From the IMG/VR virus record IMGVR_UViG_3300020020_000163, positions 1-22,482 of that record: a stretch of 22,482 bases of DNA. One strand, given 5' to 3'. The position numbers were made by a program, and so were the translations under genes. Positions 4,509 through 10,013 of this stretch are shown piece after piece. Origin of the DNA: a virus. How positions within the stretch are numbered: the stretch's first letter is position 1; each line of letters opens with the position of its first letter. Below the pieces are notes generated by a model, which ran no database searches, was not told the DNA's origin, and worked only from the letters and a program-made list of their open reading frames with translations.

Positions 4509-5816
4509 TCAGGTCGGGACGAGGCGCAGCAGCTCGGGCCCGTCGTCGATCGCGACGCGCAGCCGTCCGGCGCGCAGCTCGGCCGCGGCCTCGCAGAACC
4601 GGCGCGCCTCGGCGACGCCCATCGAGCCGACGGCCTTGCCGACGCTGATCGTCGGGAACAGCGGCGCGTCGCTCTCCGTCGCTCGAGCGGCCAGGGCGCG
4701 CACGAAGTCGGACTCGATCACGCCGTCCTCGGCGAGCAGGATCAGCGCGGCGTACAGCCAATAGCGGCGGAACGTGCGCTGCTCGCCCATCCGGAACCCG
4801 ACACCGGCCTGACGCGCCTCGAGCTCGATCGCGCTGGCCCATTCCTTGCCGGCCTTGTCGAGCTTCGTGTAGCGCTCGAAGACCTTCGTGTAGCGCTCGT
4901 CGTCGATCGTGTCGCCCTCGTCGTACTGGGAGGCGATGGCGACGGCCTTCGCTGAGGGATGCCGGGCGCGTGAGTCGTTCACCGGTGCCACGGTCACGAG
5001 CGGCGAGATCCAGCGTCGGGCCTCACGGCGCACGGCGCGGATCTCGTTCGCCAGGACCGCGGCGCGGTAGCCGGCCACCAGGTCGATCTCGTACAGCGTG
5101 CAGACGCCTTGACCGGCGGGCAGGTGAATGATGATCCCGGTGGTCTTGTCGATCGCCGGGGTCGGGAGCCGTTCGCCGGCGTCGACGTCGTAGAGCAGTG
5201 AGTGGGCGTAGGCGGCGAGCTGTGCGCCCCAGCCGAGCCCGCCGTAGTCGACGCTCGCGCCGGTCTTGAGGTCGGCGATGAACCGCATCCGGTCGCTGGA
5301 GCGGGTCAGGATGCGATCGGCGGTCCCGGCCAGTCGCAGCTCGTCGCAGACCAGGCGGCACTCGATGTACAGCGGGTCGACCTCGAACCCGGCGGCGATC
5401 AGCGCGTTCACGTAGGCCTCGATGTCGGCCTCGTACGGGCCGGCGATGACCTTCTCGCCGCGATCGGTGCGTTCGGTGAGGGCGTGGACAGCGCTGCCGA
5501 TGTCCGCGGACTTGTGCGCCTGCGCGACGCCGGCGGCGGCGTCGGAGATCTCGTTCATCTCGTTCTTCTGCGCGTCGTCCCACGTCGACGGGTCACCACC
5601 GACCGCGAGGACGCGGGCGACGAGTGACAGGTCGTAAGCCATCCCGTAGGCCCGATTCCGCCTGTCCCAGCGCTGGATGTTGTAGGTGTCCTCGATCAGC
5701 TTCGCTGCTGCGCTGGAGCGGTCGTAGGCGATCACCTTCCCGTCGGGCTGCCGGATCAGCGGCCAGCCGTTGTCGTTGCGGAAGAAGTCGGTCGCCCGAA
5801 CAGTGGTCAGCGTCAT
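4509..5816 (-). CDS. Cas4/RecB-like PD-(D/E)XK exonuclease
   Basis: The protein has 435 residues from ATG 5816, in an ATGA overlap with the small membrane gene upstream. The nuclease motifs of the RecB/Cas4 family are visible: H111 in GSAVHAL, E152, D167 in LAGTADRI, D182-L-K184 in FIADLKTG, and Q199 with Y203 in WGAQLAAYAHSL. These residues bind Mg2+ and cleave the phosphodiester backbone. There are no clustered cysteines, so the iron-sulfur cluster of true Cas4 is absent. The C-terminal ~170 residues are a helical extension. In phages, such enzymes usually resect DNA ends for homologous recombination or replication. The downstream accessory protein is the likely partner. Confidence 0.85.
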   Translation of the reverse strand: MTLTTVRATDFFRNDNGWPLIRQPDGKVIAYDRSSAAAKLIEDTYNIQRWDRRNRAYGMAYDLSLVARVLAVGGDPSTWDDAQKNEMNEISDAAAGVAQAHKSADIGSAVHALTERTDRGEKVIAGPYEADIEAYVNALIAAGFEVDPLYIECRLVCDELRLAGTADRILTRSSDRMRFIADLKTGASVDYGGLGWGAQLAAYAHSLLYDVDAGERLPTPAIDKTTGIIIHLPAGQGVCTLYEIDLVAGYRAAVLANEIRAVRREARRWISPLVTVAPVNDSRARHPSAKAVAIASQYDEGDTIDDERYTKVFERYTKLDKAGKEWASAIELEARQAGVGFRMGEQRTFRRYWLYAALILLAEDGVIESDFVRALAARATESDAPLFPTISVGKAVGSMGVAEARRFCEAAAELRAGRLRVAIDDGPELLRLVPT

Positions 5817-5971: not shown

Positions 5972-6163
5972 TCAGACGTCGTCGCGGCGGGCTTCGAGGA
6001 ACTGCGCGACCTGCTCGTCGCTGATCCGGTCGTAGCGGCCGACCTTGTGGCTGCCGAGCTGGCGGGTCCTGATCCAGCCGCGCACCGTCTGGGGGTGGAC
6101 GTGGAGCATCTCGGCGACCTCGTCGACGGTGTACATGCGCGGCAGAGCAGAAGACATGCTCAC
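5972..6163 (-). CDS. Excisionase / MerR-like helix-turn-helix DNA-binding protein
   Basis: The product is 63 residues from GTG 6163, chosen because a strong GGAGG (6175-6171) lies seven bases upstream; ATG 6157 is the alternative. The protein is a winged HTH of the excisionase/MerR type: YTVDEVAEMLHVHPQTVRGW forms the helix-turn-helix and GSHKVGRYDRISDEQVAQFL the wing and following helix. Such proteins act as recombination directionality factors that bend attachment-site DNA or as small transcription regulators. Adjacency to the integrase remnant and the attP makes an excisionase role most natural. Its ribosome site lies in one copy of the repeated TCCAGGCTC motif, which suggests autoregulation (inference). 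Confidence 0.8.
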   Translation of the reverse strand: MSMSSALPRMYTVDEVAEMLHVHPQTVRGWIRTRQLGSHKVGRYDRISDEQVAQFLEARRDDV

Positions 6164-6172
6164 TCGGATTCC

Positions 6173-6317
6173 TCCAGGCTCACTCAGGTGGGCGGGTGTG
6201 AGCACCTAAGCACTACCTGGCTGTGAGGGGCCAGTGGACAACCTTGCCGGTGGCGGGGTCCAGGCTCACCGTGACTCACCCACAATACGTGACGTTCGCT
6301 AGCGTATGTCCAGGCTC
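6173..6317. promoter_or_regulatory. Three direct repeats of TCCAGGCTC(AC), candidate operator or arm sites
   Basis: TCCAGGCTCAC occurs at 6173-6183 and 6259-6269, and the shorter TCCAGGCTC at 6309-6317, all in the same direction. Between them is a palindrome CGCTAGCG at 6297-6304 and, on the minus strand, a weak promoter-like pair TGGACA (6312-6307) and TATTGT (6287-6282) with a 19-base spacer. A one-mismatch DnaA-like box TGGGGATAA lies just beyond. The first repeat overlaps the ribosome site of the HTH gene. The region looks regulatory even though it is read as the tail of the integrase remnant. It could hold operators or integrase/excisionase sites. Confidence 0.4.
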
Positions 6318-6816
6318 TGGGGATAAGTTTTTCTGCGTGCGGCAGTGAAATCCCCGTCACGGGTGAGCGGGACGCGATCGCGGCGTTGCGGCAGTCGAGT
6401 GTCAGGCGCATGTCGAAGGAGTCGAGCAGCCGCCGGTACTCGAGGTCGGTGACGTAGCCGATGCGGGCCGGGTCGACCCGGTCGGCGCCTTTCGGGCGGG
6501 CGACGCGCCCCATCGGGTTGCGGCCCGGGAGCTCGGACTCGGTGTGCAGCCAGCGGTACAGGTGGGCGAGGAACTGGTGATCCTTGACCAGCGTCGACCC
6601 GGACACTCCGGTCGTGCGGCGGGAGTCGAGGTAGTCGTTCAGGTCGGCCGATGAAACCTCGAGCAGGTCGACACCGCGGGCCGCGATCCAGTGCGCGTAG
6701 CGGTTGAGGATCGAGAGTGCGTTCTGCTGGTAGGCGTCGGTCCAGCGTTGCCGGTGGGCCTGGATCAGGTCGCCGATCAGCGGGTGGGCGGGTCTGGCTC
6801 GTCGTGCCGGGTTCAT
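6184..6816 (-). pseudogene. Truncated tyrosine integrase lacking its catalytic domain
   Basis: The frame has 210 codons from ATG 6816, with AGAGGA upstream as ribosome site. Residues about 10-105 form the SAM-like core-binding domain of tyrosine recombinases (ALSILNRYAHWIAARG, then DLNDYLDSRRTTGVSGSTL and FLAHLYRWLHTE). RIGYVTDLEYRRLLDSF at about 118-134 is the normal entry into the catalytic domain, and LDCRNAAI at 139-146 matches the helix that precedes the first catalytic arginine. From about residue 147 the similarity stops. The remaining ~65 residues show no R-H-x-x-R box or catalytic tyrosine, and only about 160 bases remain before the stop, while a full integrase needs about 150 more residues. 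No other frame supplies the missing part before the HTH gene. The likely cause is an internal deletion joining int to a regulatory region. Confidence 0.75.
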
Positions 6817-6918: not shown

Positions 6919-6965
6919 TCGAGCGGACGACGGGATTCGAACCCGCGACCCTCACCTTGGCAAGC
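6919..6965 (-). other. attP core: 3' half of tRNA-Gly(GCC)
   Basis: The minus strand carries CTTGCCAAGG (the GCC anticodon loop), the T-arm GCGGGTTCGAATCCCGT and the 3' acceptor strand CGTCCGCT. This is the 3' half of a tRNA-Gly from the anticodon loop to the discriminator. There is no matching 5' acceptor (GCGGACG) or D-arm upstream, and the preceding bases do not pair with the anticodon stem, so it is not a functional tRNA. Tyrosine integrases commonly use tRNA 3' halves as crossover cores because integration rebuilds the gene. Lysis genes on one side and int on the other mean both flanks are phage, so this is attP rather than attL or attR. Confidence 0.82.
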
Positions 6966-7057: not shown

Positions 7058-7183
7058 TCACTTTCCCTGTTGCTCGCGGCGGAGGTACTCGAGGACGTAG
7101 CGGGTGATCCTGATCGTGACGAGCGCACCGCCGACCAAGCCGAGCACGAACGCCCCGGCGACCGCGACGTCCGCCCAAGTCAC
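7058..7183 (-). CDS. Small membrane protein, 41 aa, probable second holin/antiholin-like component
   Basis: A 41-residue frame starts at GTG 7183, overlapping the stop of the holin-like gene as GTGA. One transmembrane helix (VAVAGAFVLGLVGGALVTI) is followed by a basic, charged tail (RITRYVLEYLRREQQGK) that would remain in the cytoplasm. Two adjacent small membrane genes after an endolysin are common in actinophage lysis cassettes, where the second may modulate the first. It could equally be an independent holin. The assignment is from context and topology. Confidence 0.6.
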   Translation of the reverse strand: MTWADVAVAGAFVLGLVGGALVTIRITRYVLEYLRREQQGK

Positions 7184-7359
7184 AGCACCAGCAGCGCGAG
7201 TGCGGTGAGCGCGAGCCCGGCGGGCAGCAGCGCGCCGCTGGTCGGGTCGGGCCGCTTCGTCCAGGCGAGCACGGCGTGGATCACGAAGACGATCACGGCG
7301 ATCAGCAGTAGCCAGTCCGCAAGCGTGATATGGCCTGAAATCAGAGCGTCGGAAATCAT
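7180..7359 (-). CDS. Holin-like protein, 59 aa, two membrane segments
   Basis: The frame starts at ATG 7359, three bases after the endolysin stop, with a purine-rich GGGAAGGGAT upstream as ribosome site. The product has two hydrophobic helices, WLLLIAVIVFVIHAVLAW at about 16-33 and LLPAGLALTALALLVL at 44-59. They are joined by a short polar loop (TKRPDPTSG). Size, topology and position fit a class II-type holin, which forms membrane holes that let endolysin reach the cell wall. The sequence alone does not identify a holin family. Confidence 0.7.
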   Translation of the reverse strand: MISDALISGHITLADWLLLIAVIVFVIHAVLAWTKRPDPTSGALLPAGLALTALALLVL

Positions 7360-7362
7360 GGC

Positions 7363-7536
7363 TCATCCCTTCCCTTTGGCGATGAAGTCGGCCCAGACGA
7401 CCGGGTCGGTCGGGAGCGCGGAACCGAAACGCATCTCGTACTCGTGGAGGTCCCCGCCGGCGAGCCCGGTCAACTTCCCGTCGCCGTACACGATCGCGAT
7501 CTCCCCGGTGTCACGGTTGCGGATGATGAATGCCAT
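7363..7536 (-). CDS. Probable internally initiated C-terminal endolysin fragment, 57 aa
   Basis: Inside the endolysin gene, codon 210 is an ATG (7536-7534) preceded by a perfect AGGAG (7547-7543) with a six-base spacer. This is one of the best ribosome sites in the window, and it lies exactly between the proline linker and the C-terminal domain, so the product (MAFIIRNRDTGEIAIVYG onward) would be that domain alone. In-frame internal starts that make free wall-binding subunits are known in some phage endolysins, such as Lys170 and CTP1L. Here the site is seen in sequence; its use is inference. Confidence 0.55.
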   Translation of the reverse strand: MAFIIRNRDTGEIAIVYGDGKLTGLAGGDLHEYEMRFGSALPTDPVVWADFIAKGKG

Positions 7537-8163
7537 GTCGGTCTCCTGTTCGTCGGGTGGCGGGATCGGCTCGGGTCCGGGTGTGGAGTGGTGATCGGCG
7601 ACGTCCTCACGGAAGGCGCCCATGTCCCACAGGTCACCGCCCGTGGCGTAGCGCGAGTGGCCGGCCGGGTCGATCTTGCGTGACGGTGCGTACTCGAAGT
7701 GCGAGTGGAGCTGCTCGATGCCGTAGGCGAGCTCGAGCTCGGCGCAGAGCCGGACGTAGCACTCCTGCTGGCCGGACGGCCATGTCTCGCCGGTGCCGTT
7801 GTTGGCGGCCTCGATCCCGATCGCGTGGCTGTTCATCGTGTCGTCATCGGCGAGTCGGCACGGGTCGATCCCTGACCCGTTCGTGTTCGTCGCGCCGGCG
7901 GCCATCACGAAGATCTCCGGGACGCGGGAGATGTACAGGTTGGCGAGCGGTGCGGCGTCGGCCGTCCAGGTCATGTAGCCGACGTCGGACCAACCGTCGC
8001 TGGAGGGCCCGGACGCGGTGTGGTGCGCCATGACGTGAGTCGGTCGGCCCGGGTCGTACCCTCCGCTCGAGCGGCCGCGGGTCTCCCAGCCGTCGACCTC
8101 GATCACCGGGAACCCGGTGCGCCGGCACACGTTGGCGAGGTCGAGCAGGTAGCGGGAGCCCAT
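7363..8163 (-). CDS. Endolysin, N-acetylmuramoyl-L-alanine amidase (Amidase_2 type)
   Basis: The protein has 266 residues from ATG 8163, overlapping the upstream stop as TGATG. Residues about 15-190 form an Amidase_2/PGRP-like zinc amidase domain. VMAHHTAS contains the H47/H48 zinc ligand region, HAIGIEAANNG at 113-123 is the conserved central strand, and LHSHFEY with SRKIDPAG supplies a second histidine and the K-x-D at 163-165. The enzyme cleaves the bond between muramic acid and the peptide stem. There is no signal peptide, so release depends on a holin, and holin-like genes follow directly. A proline-rich linker (PGPEPIPPP, about 195-203) joins a C-terminal ~57-residue domain, probably for wall binding. 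An internal start before that domain is listed separately. Confidence 0.9.
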   Translation of the reverse strand: MGSRYLLDLANVCRRTGFPVIEVDGWETRGRSSGGYDPGRPTHVMAHHTASGPSSDGWSDVGYMTWTADAAPLANLYISRVPEIFVMAAGATNTNGSGIDPCRLADDDTMNSHAIGIEAANNGTGETWPSGQQECYVRLCAELELAYGIEQLHSHFEYAPSRKIDPAGHSRYATGGDLWDMGAFREDVADHHSTPGPEPIPPPDEQETDMAFIIRNRDTGEIAIVYGDGKLTGLAGGDLHEYEMRFGSALPTDPVVWADFIAKGKG

Positions 8164-8718: not shown

Positions 8719-9414
8719 TCATGGTGTGCCGTAGTAGGACCGTGACCATGCGAGCAGGTTCGCAAGGTCGGTCGCCCCCAGGATCGAATCAGCGGTAGCG
8801 AAGAACGCCGCGGCGGCACTCGTCGCGAACGAGTTGGCGAGGTTGAAGATTCCCATAGCGGAACGGCTGCCCGTGCCAGCAGATGCCGTCACGACCGTCA
8901 CCCCGTCGACGATGATCTTCGTGGATGCCCCATTGAAGACCAAGACGAACAGATGCTTGGCAAGGTCCGCAGTACCGCCACTGATGATGGTCGACCCGCC
9001 ATACGCCTTCCATGAGGTTTGCCACTGGGGCCCCCATCCCCCTCCAAAGTCAGCGAAGACGCCGTTGACGGCGTTGAACTTGGCGACAATGACGACCGTG
9101 AACGGTTGCACCACAGCCGAATGGGTCGCCCCGATGAAGTCGTTGCTCGCGGCGGTGGATTCGACCGCCGGTTTCGAGTTGAGCGCGGCGTACGCGGACC
9201 GGTAGTCGGGCCGTTTCCCGGCGTCCGCTTGCGCCAGGTTGAGCGTGCCGACCTCGTCCGGCCAGGACGAGACCGCGGCACCGTTGGCGAGCCCGAGCGC
9301 GATGAACTCCGGTCCCTGCGTCCAGTAGGCGTGCGACCATGCGACGTTCGCGATCGGGTCCCACGGCGGCGGGTTCTGTTTCGCGGACGCGACGATCCCG
9401 AGCGTGGACGGCAT
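8719..9414 (-). CDS. LamG/concanavalin-like tail appendage protein, 231 aa
   Basis: The product starts at ATG 9414, overlapping the fibre gene stop as TGATG. After a proline-rich N-terminus, residues about 30-225 look like a jelly-roll lectin fold: SSWPDEVGTLNLAQADAG, ESTAASNDFIGAT, FTVVIVAKFNAVNG, KHLFVLVFNG, TKIIVDGVTV and a closing LANLLAWSRSYYG. Proteins of this kind commonly end phage tail operons and are thought to bind host surface sugars. Base composition at about 8880-9120 is visibly lower in GC than the flanks, suggesting module exchange. A receptor-binding role is inferred. Confidence 0.65.
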   Translation of the reverse strand: MPSTLGIVASAKQNPPPWDPIANVAWSHAYWTQGPEFIALGLANGAAVSSWPDEVGTLNLAQADAGKRPDYRSAYAALNSKPAVESTAASNDFIGATHSAVVQPFTVVIVAKFNAVNGVFADFGGGWGPQWQTSWKAYGGSTIISGGTADLAKHLFVLVFNGASTKIIVDGVTVVTASAGTGSRSAMGIFNLANSFATSAAAAFFATADSILGATDLANLLAWSRSYYGTP

Positions 9415-10013
9415 CAGGCCAGATCTCCGGTGAGCGCCCATGTCGTCGCGCCCATCTTGACGGCGGTGACGAACGAGCCGATTGCCCGGGCGACGGCGGA
9501 CGGGGTCGGGGCGACGTCCCATGTCGCGCCCGCGCCGAGGACGAACGTCGCCGCGCCACCGATGCACACGAAATCGACCCGTTGCCCGGTCGTCGGCCCC
9601 GCGGATGGGAGCGTGACGGTCGCGGTGCCGGTCAGTCGCTTCAGCTTGCCCGCATCGGCGGCCACAACGGCGTATGCGCTGCCCGCGGCGGTTTCGACGG
9701 TCTGTGCCGTCGACCAGTCCCCGTTCGTCCCGGCGGGGCCTTGTGCGCCGGTGGAGCCGGTGGGACCGGTCGAGCCTGTCGCCCCGGTCGGGCCGGGGTC
9801 ACCTTGCGGGCCAGTCGCCCCTGCCGGACCTGTCGCGCCGGTAGCGCCGGTAGCGCCCGCCGGACCGGTGGCCCCTGCCGGACCTGTCGGACCCGGAACA
9901 GTCGACGCCGGCCCGGGTGGGCCTGCCGGTCCTGGTGGCCCTCCGACCGAGCCGACATGGACGACGTCGAGCGGACCGTCGACCTCGACCACGATCACGT
10001 CGGGGCGGCTCAT
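9414..10013 (-). CDS. Collagen-like repeat tail fibre protein, 199 aa
   Basis: The start is ATG 10013, with an ATGA overlap to the upstream gene. A ~22-residue N-terminal part is followed by Gly-X-Y repeats at about 24-97, beginning [14 protein letters not shown] and rich in [10 protein letters not shown]. The repeat is broken once (STVPGP). The C-terminal ~100 residues ([46 protein letters not shown]) resemble the small beta-rich heads seen after collagen repeats in phage fibres. Collagen repeats form a trimeric shaft that extends a receptor-binding or capping head. The repeat stretch is recombination-prone, so length may vary between relatives. Confidence 0.82.

Follow-up and report, generated by a model that had tools for sequence, protein, structure and literature searches.

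Mycobacteriophages D29 and TM4 are the closest described cases of temperate phages that lost lysogeny through deletion. D29 arose by deletion from a temperate parent of the L5 type, and one end of that deletion lies inside the repressor gene (PMC5712189). It has lost 3.6 kb around the repressor, is non-lysogenic, and is homoimmune with L5; temperate phages related to D29 keep the lost segment (PMC5712189, PMC3203893). For TM4 (Cluster K), comparison with temperate relatives indicates that int and attP were lost together in a deletion of about 3.5 kb, while a predicted MerR-like Xis gene was kept (PMC3203893). TM4 probably lost a repressor in a second deletion (PMC3203893).

The locus analyzed here adds a case of this kind from another phage group, one that is uncultured; the principle is already known from D29 and TM4. 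As in D29, a natural deletion would end inside the repressor gene, temperate-type relatives carry the lost segment, and the homoimmunity of D29 with L5 parallels what the operators kept here predict. The locus differs from D29 in that a single junction truncates int and has cost nearly all of the repressor, and in that the lytic life style is one we infer. As in TM4, the case is built by comparison with temperate relatives: integration functions appear to have been lost and a MerR-like/Xis-like gene retained. Unlike TM4, this phage still carries attP as well as the first half of int, and a single deletion suffices as an explanation. The locus would be a clear record, at the sequence level, of a soil phage giving up temperate for lytic growth through one deletion.

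The stretch of DNA analyzed (hereafter, the window) is the 22,482-base virus record IMGVR_UViG_3300020020_000163, which is linear and possibly incomplete. All of its main genes lie on the minus strand. They include terminase, portal, protease, capsid, and tail genes, an endolysin (7363 to 8163; phrog_880, E value of 1.6e-23; 56% identical in the related contig L176), a holin-like gene (7058 to 7366), and attP; position was part of the basis for naming the portal, protease, capsid, and holin genes. The gene at 7058 to 7366 is presumed to encode a holin from its place beside the endolysin, and its homologues flank attP on the same side in L176 and another relative, L177. Beyond attP lie an integrase stump, a helix-turn-helix (HTH) gene, a Cas4-type exonuclease downstream of it (4509 to 5816; phrog_466, E value of 1.3e-58), a phrog_870 protein, and a C5-cytosine methylase. 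An AAA-domain (helicase-like) protein and a transglycosylase-like protein are also encoded. The latter, in the early region (434 to 871; PF06737, Rpf-type), has homologues in several relatives, and a tail-region protein (9414 to 10013) carries collagen-like GPxG/GATG repeats. Terminase relatives were found in many IMG/VR contigs. Among annotated phages, those whose exonuclease resembles that of the window mainly have hosts in Mycobacterium, Streptomyces, and Gordonia, which makes an actinobacterium the probable host here, and it is from this probable host type that a soil origin of the group is suggested.

The attP core (6921 to 6963) is a 43-nt sequence shared with relatives and corresponding to the 3′ part of a tRNA-Gly(GCC)-like gene, an identity read from the sequence that ARAGORN and Rfam did not detect. 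The core is identical in L176 (IMGVR_UViG_3300005355_000313) and G017 (also L023; IMGVR_UViG_3300011423_000038) and has three differences in L177; similar sequences occur in other phage records as well. These three contigs were found by a degenerate-motif search of viral contigs, which also returned L179, a contig without a matching integrase. L176 and G017 resemble the window in lysin, attP core, and integrase type; they differ from it in having a full integrase with its catalytic domain and, beyond, a repressor-like gene.

Next to attP, the window encodes a 210-amino-acid open reading frame (6184 to 6816, minus strand), of which residues 1 to 149 match phage tyrosine integrases. Residues 24 to 143 matched the PHROG family phrog_1, "integrase" (E value of 5.7e-10); the Pfam Phage_int_SAM_1 profile gave only a subthreshold match (E value of 0.0025). 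These 149 codons (6370 to 6816, minus strand) cover the core-binding domain and the entry into the catalytic domain and are 45 to 48% identical to the intact integrases of L176, L177, and G017. In alignments with five intact relatives, similarity ended abruptly after LDCRNAAI-A-S at residue 149 (bases 6816 to 6370). Where the window stops matching, the intact proteins run on as SLMYxSGxR: the window reads LDCRNAAIAS and then RSPVTG, and L176 at that point reads LDCRNAAICSLLYRSGAR. The alignment thus places the cut a few residues before catalytic Arg I, as the earlier note on this DNA had proposed. The catalytic domain (PF00589) was absent from the whole record in a profile search and was full in all five relatives (E values from 1e-16 to 4e-24). 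As judged from domain content, the stump is a tyrosine integrase remnant that has the core-binding part, lacks the catalytic R-K-H-R-H/W-Y residues, and is not predicted to be an active member of the family. No close relatives were recovered by single-protein scans of viral and genome collections, a PDB sequence search gave chance matches only, and annotated phages gave only partial matches at 37 to 40% identity, in Pseudomonas phages. The integrases of three terminase relatives (G005, G007, and G009) and two exonuclease relatives (G001 and G002) had no detectable homology to the stump.

The remaining 61 codons (150 to 210; 6184 to 6369, minus strand) are not integrase. G+C at third codon positions dropped from 0.96 (codons 101 to 149) to 0.59, and overall G+C dropped from about 0.70 to 0.58 to 0.63, in line with the lower G+C noticed earlier. 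This tail ends 26 bp before the start codon of the HTH gene and overlaps the region that lies between that gene and the position of the missing repressor (6158 to 6344). The 186-bp region aligned with the corresponding control regions of two relatives, G029 (score of 95; shuffle maximum, 48) and G044 (score of 81; shuffle maximum, 55), and in neither case did any of 500 dinucleotide shuffles reach the observed score; the control regions of L176 and G017 gave no significant alignment with it. A conserved repressor leader, AAAACTTA..CC.CAG, was present in the window and the relatives (GAAAAACTTATCCCCAG in the window versus CGAAAACTTACCCACAG in G029), as was an HTH leader (TGAGCCTGGAGGAATCCGAGTGA versus TGAGCATGGGGGAATCTGAGTGA). 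These alignments identify the tail as divergent repressor/HTH control region read out of context in a chance frame, which bears out the suggestion that the remainder was a control region. The repeats and palindrome remarked on before are also there. The window has exactly three copies of TCCAGGCTC, which all fall within 6173 to 6317, against 0.26 expected; when the full window was shuffled 100 times, one shuffle reached three copies; the palindrome CGCTAGCG lies at 6297 to 6304. On the minus strand, the operator-like repeat is GAGCCTGGA, at 6173 to 6181, 6259 to 6267, and 6309 to 6317. The first copy shares its position with TGAGCATGG of G029 and G044, and such similar sites number two in G029 and one in G044. 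The three repeats are probably operators. In the same region, a repressor leader stretch at 6320 to 6332, with equivalents in G029, G044, and G017, is TTATCC(A/C)C-like and resembles a DnaA box.

The HTH gene itself (5972 to 6157, minus strand) is the first of the early operon and encodes an excisionase/MerR-like protein of the HTH_17 type (PF12728, E value of 2.1e-12; phrog_66, "excisionase and transcriptional regulator," E value of 3.7e-9). Its homologues in G029 and G044, the closest HTH genes, are 76% and 59% identical, respectively.

Five IMG/VR contigs (G029, G044, L176, L177, and G017) carried the order lysin, attP, full integrase, and four of the five also had, farther on, a small repressor-like gene and a gene for an HTH protein; L177 ends just after int. 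In G017, L176, and L177, the attP core lies beside a lysin gene, and the full integrases are 311 to 330 amino acids long. The tRNA-like core of G029 and G044 is another one, and their integrases are less closely related (about 34% identity). In G029, G044, and L176, the full integrase is followed by the small repressor-like gene in the opposed, converging orientation, then the control region, then the HTH homologue. Thus, the missing lysogeny genes are kept in the same place in G029, G044, L176, and G017, whose temperate type is read from their genes, and the segment sought between the stump position and the HTH gene, a repressor plus the int C terminus, is present in the first three. The repressor assignments vary in support: the products of L176 and G017 match HTH_31 below the cutoff, those of G029 and L176 weakly match a PHROG transcriptional regulator family, and that of G044 was recognized only by its likeness to the products of the other relatives. 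G017 also encodes most of the window's structural genes at about 35 to 74% identity. Between its int and repressor lies a methyltransferase-like gene (L117:3164-3961, minus strand), perhaps a moron. No repressor homologue was found elsewhere in the window, itself linear and possibly incomplete; the match to the G029 repressor is the control region itself. Nor was the int C terminus found elsewhere in the window in any frame; the match to the L177 integrase C terminus was an artifact of splitting the L177 protein at an earlier RNA motif.

Remnants of both genes flank a single junction in the window: int codons 1 to 149 lie on one side of it, and across it come the repressor leader and the control region. 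The earlier note had placed the join at 6340 to 6350; the alignments upheld the junction and shifted it to 6365 to 6372, where integrase similarity ends and repressor-leader similarity starts (with uncertainty within about 6345 to 6372), since 6345 to 6369 resembles a repressor start. A GTG at 6345 on the plus strand stands 12 nt from the AAAACTTA leader, a spacing also seen for the repressor start in G044 and close to the 11 nt in G029. The segment from 6345 to 6369 (plus strand), GTG plus about 8 codons, is the probable start of the lost repressor gene, although 25 nt is short. The size of the missing segment depends on the relative used as a yardstick: about 1.0 kb by G044, 1.4 kb by G029 and L176, or 1.7 kb by G017, the last figure taking in the extra methyltransferase-like gene.

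We consider it probable that one deletion took out the catalytic domain of the integrase together with almost the entire repressor and that a once-temperate phage is now lytic; the gene order of G029, G044, and L176 supports the deletion proposed before, including its suggestion that a repressor was lost. In the ancestor, a temperate phage of soil, the order would have been endolysin, holin, attP, int, and a repressor tail to tail with int, then, past a divergent control region, the HTH gene at the head of the early operon. A single internal deletion of roughly 1.0 to 1.7 kb would have brought int codon ∼149 up against roughly codon 8 of the repressor, taking in one step the integrase catalytic domain, nearly the whole repressor, and anything between. 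Left in place would be attP, the start of int, the operator-like repeats, and the HTH gene, with neither attP nor this excisionase-like gene having an integrase to work with. The stump would now be read 61 codons into the operator region, without catalytic residues. Because int and the repressor lie tail to tail, integration and immunity would have been lost at once, leading to obligately lytic growth, and the kept operators could still bind the repressor of a related prophage. With the nearest integrases at 45 to 48% identity and no direct parent known, both the single event and its exact ends are what we infer from these comparisons. The tail-to-tail arrangement in this uncultured group means that both integration and immunity can go in one deletion.

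An assembler that skipped about 1 kb of a phage that is really temperate would produce the same junction, and this explanation we regard as unlikely. It draws on there being one assembly only, the junction having been found in no other IMG/VR contig in a search that may not have covered the nearest records. Speaking against this explanation, repeats reaching 12 nt are absent across the junction, which makes the usual k-mer collapse within a contig unlikely (a check insensitive to a chimera or to a minority variant in the sample), and the expected gene order is kept on both sides.

The intact attP core and HTH/Xis-like gene, together with the existence of phages that have the same attP core and a full integrase, could also fit a phage that is still temperate with help, its integrase supplied in trans by a related prophage. 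The repressor is lost too, so the helper would also have to supply immunity, and the window has a structural gene set and no sign of satellite life; we hold this to be very improbable.

The 149 codons of the stump contain no stop or frameshift, and the stump keeps 82% of the columns invariant in the other three integrases, compared to 85 to 90% for the intact ones. These features hint weakly that the deletion is recent. They might also be read as selection for a working 210-amino-acid protein, a catalytically dead regulator that binds attP; if true, such a stump would serve the phage against related temperate phages, either by blocking their integration or by regulation directed at them. A deletion of recent date would leave the gene looking no different, and the tail is a control region in a chance frame. 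No relative has such a protein: every integrase homologue found was full-length, no other stump of this kind occurred among about 85 related contigs, and the widely conserved 210-amino-acid product that would have counted against a deletion was not seen. We therefore give this reading scarcely any credence.

Replacement by a serine recombinase was ruled out within the record (PF07508 was absent from all of it in a profile search), a frameshift was ruled out by the DNA that follows, which matches control regions and holds the int C terminus in no frame, and a cryptic integrated prophage was judged unlikely because attP is undivided between the holin-like gene and int.

Two further terminase relatives, L003/G003 and L131/G016 (75% and 60% identical to the window in terminase), gave no match to PF00589 within their contigs, and the stretch from their lysis genes to their early genes showed no repressor. 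Because these relatives are without an integrase in their contigs, loss or absence of lysogeny may be recurrent in this phage group. The gene order of G003 is also rearranged: homologues of window genes g10010, g9414, g8719, and g8163 lie between protease and capsid (L003, 13723 to 15813) and not after the tail genes as they do in the window.
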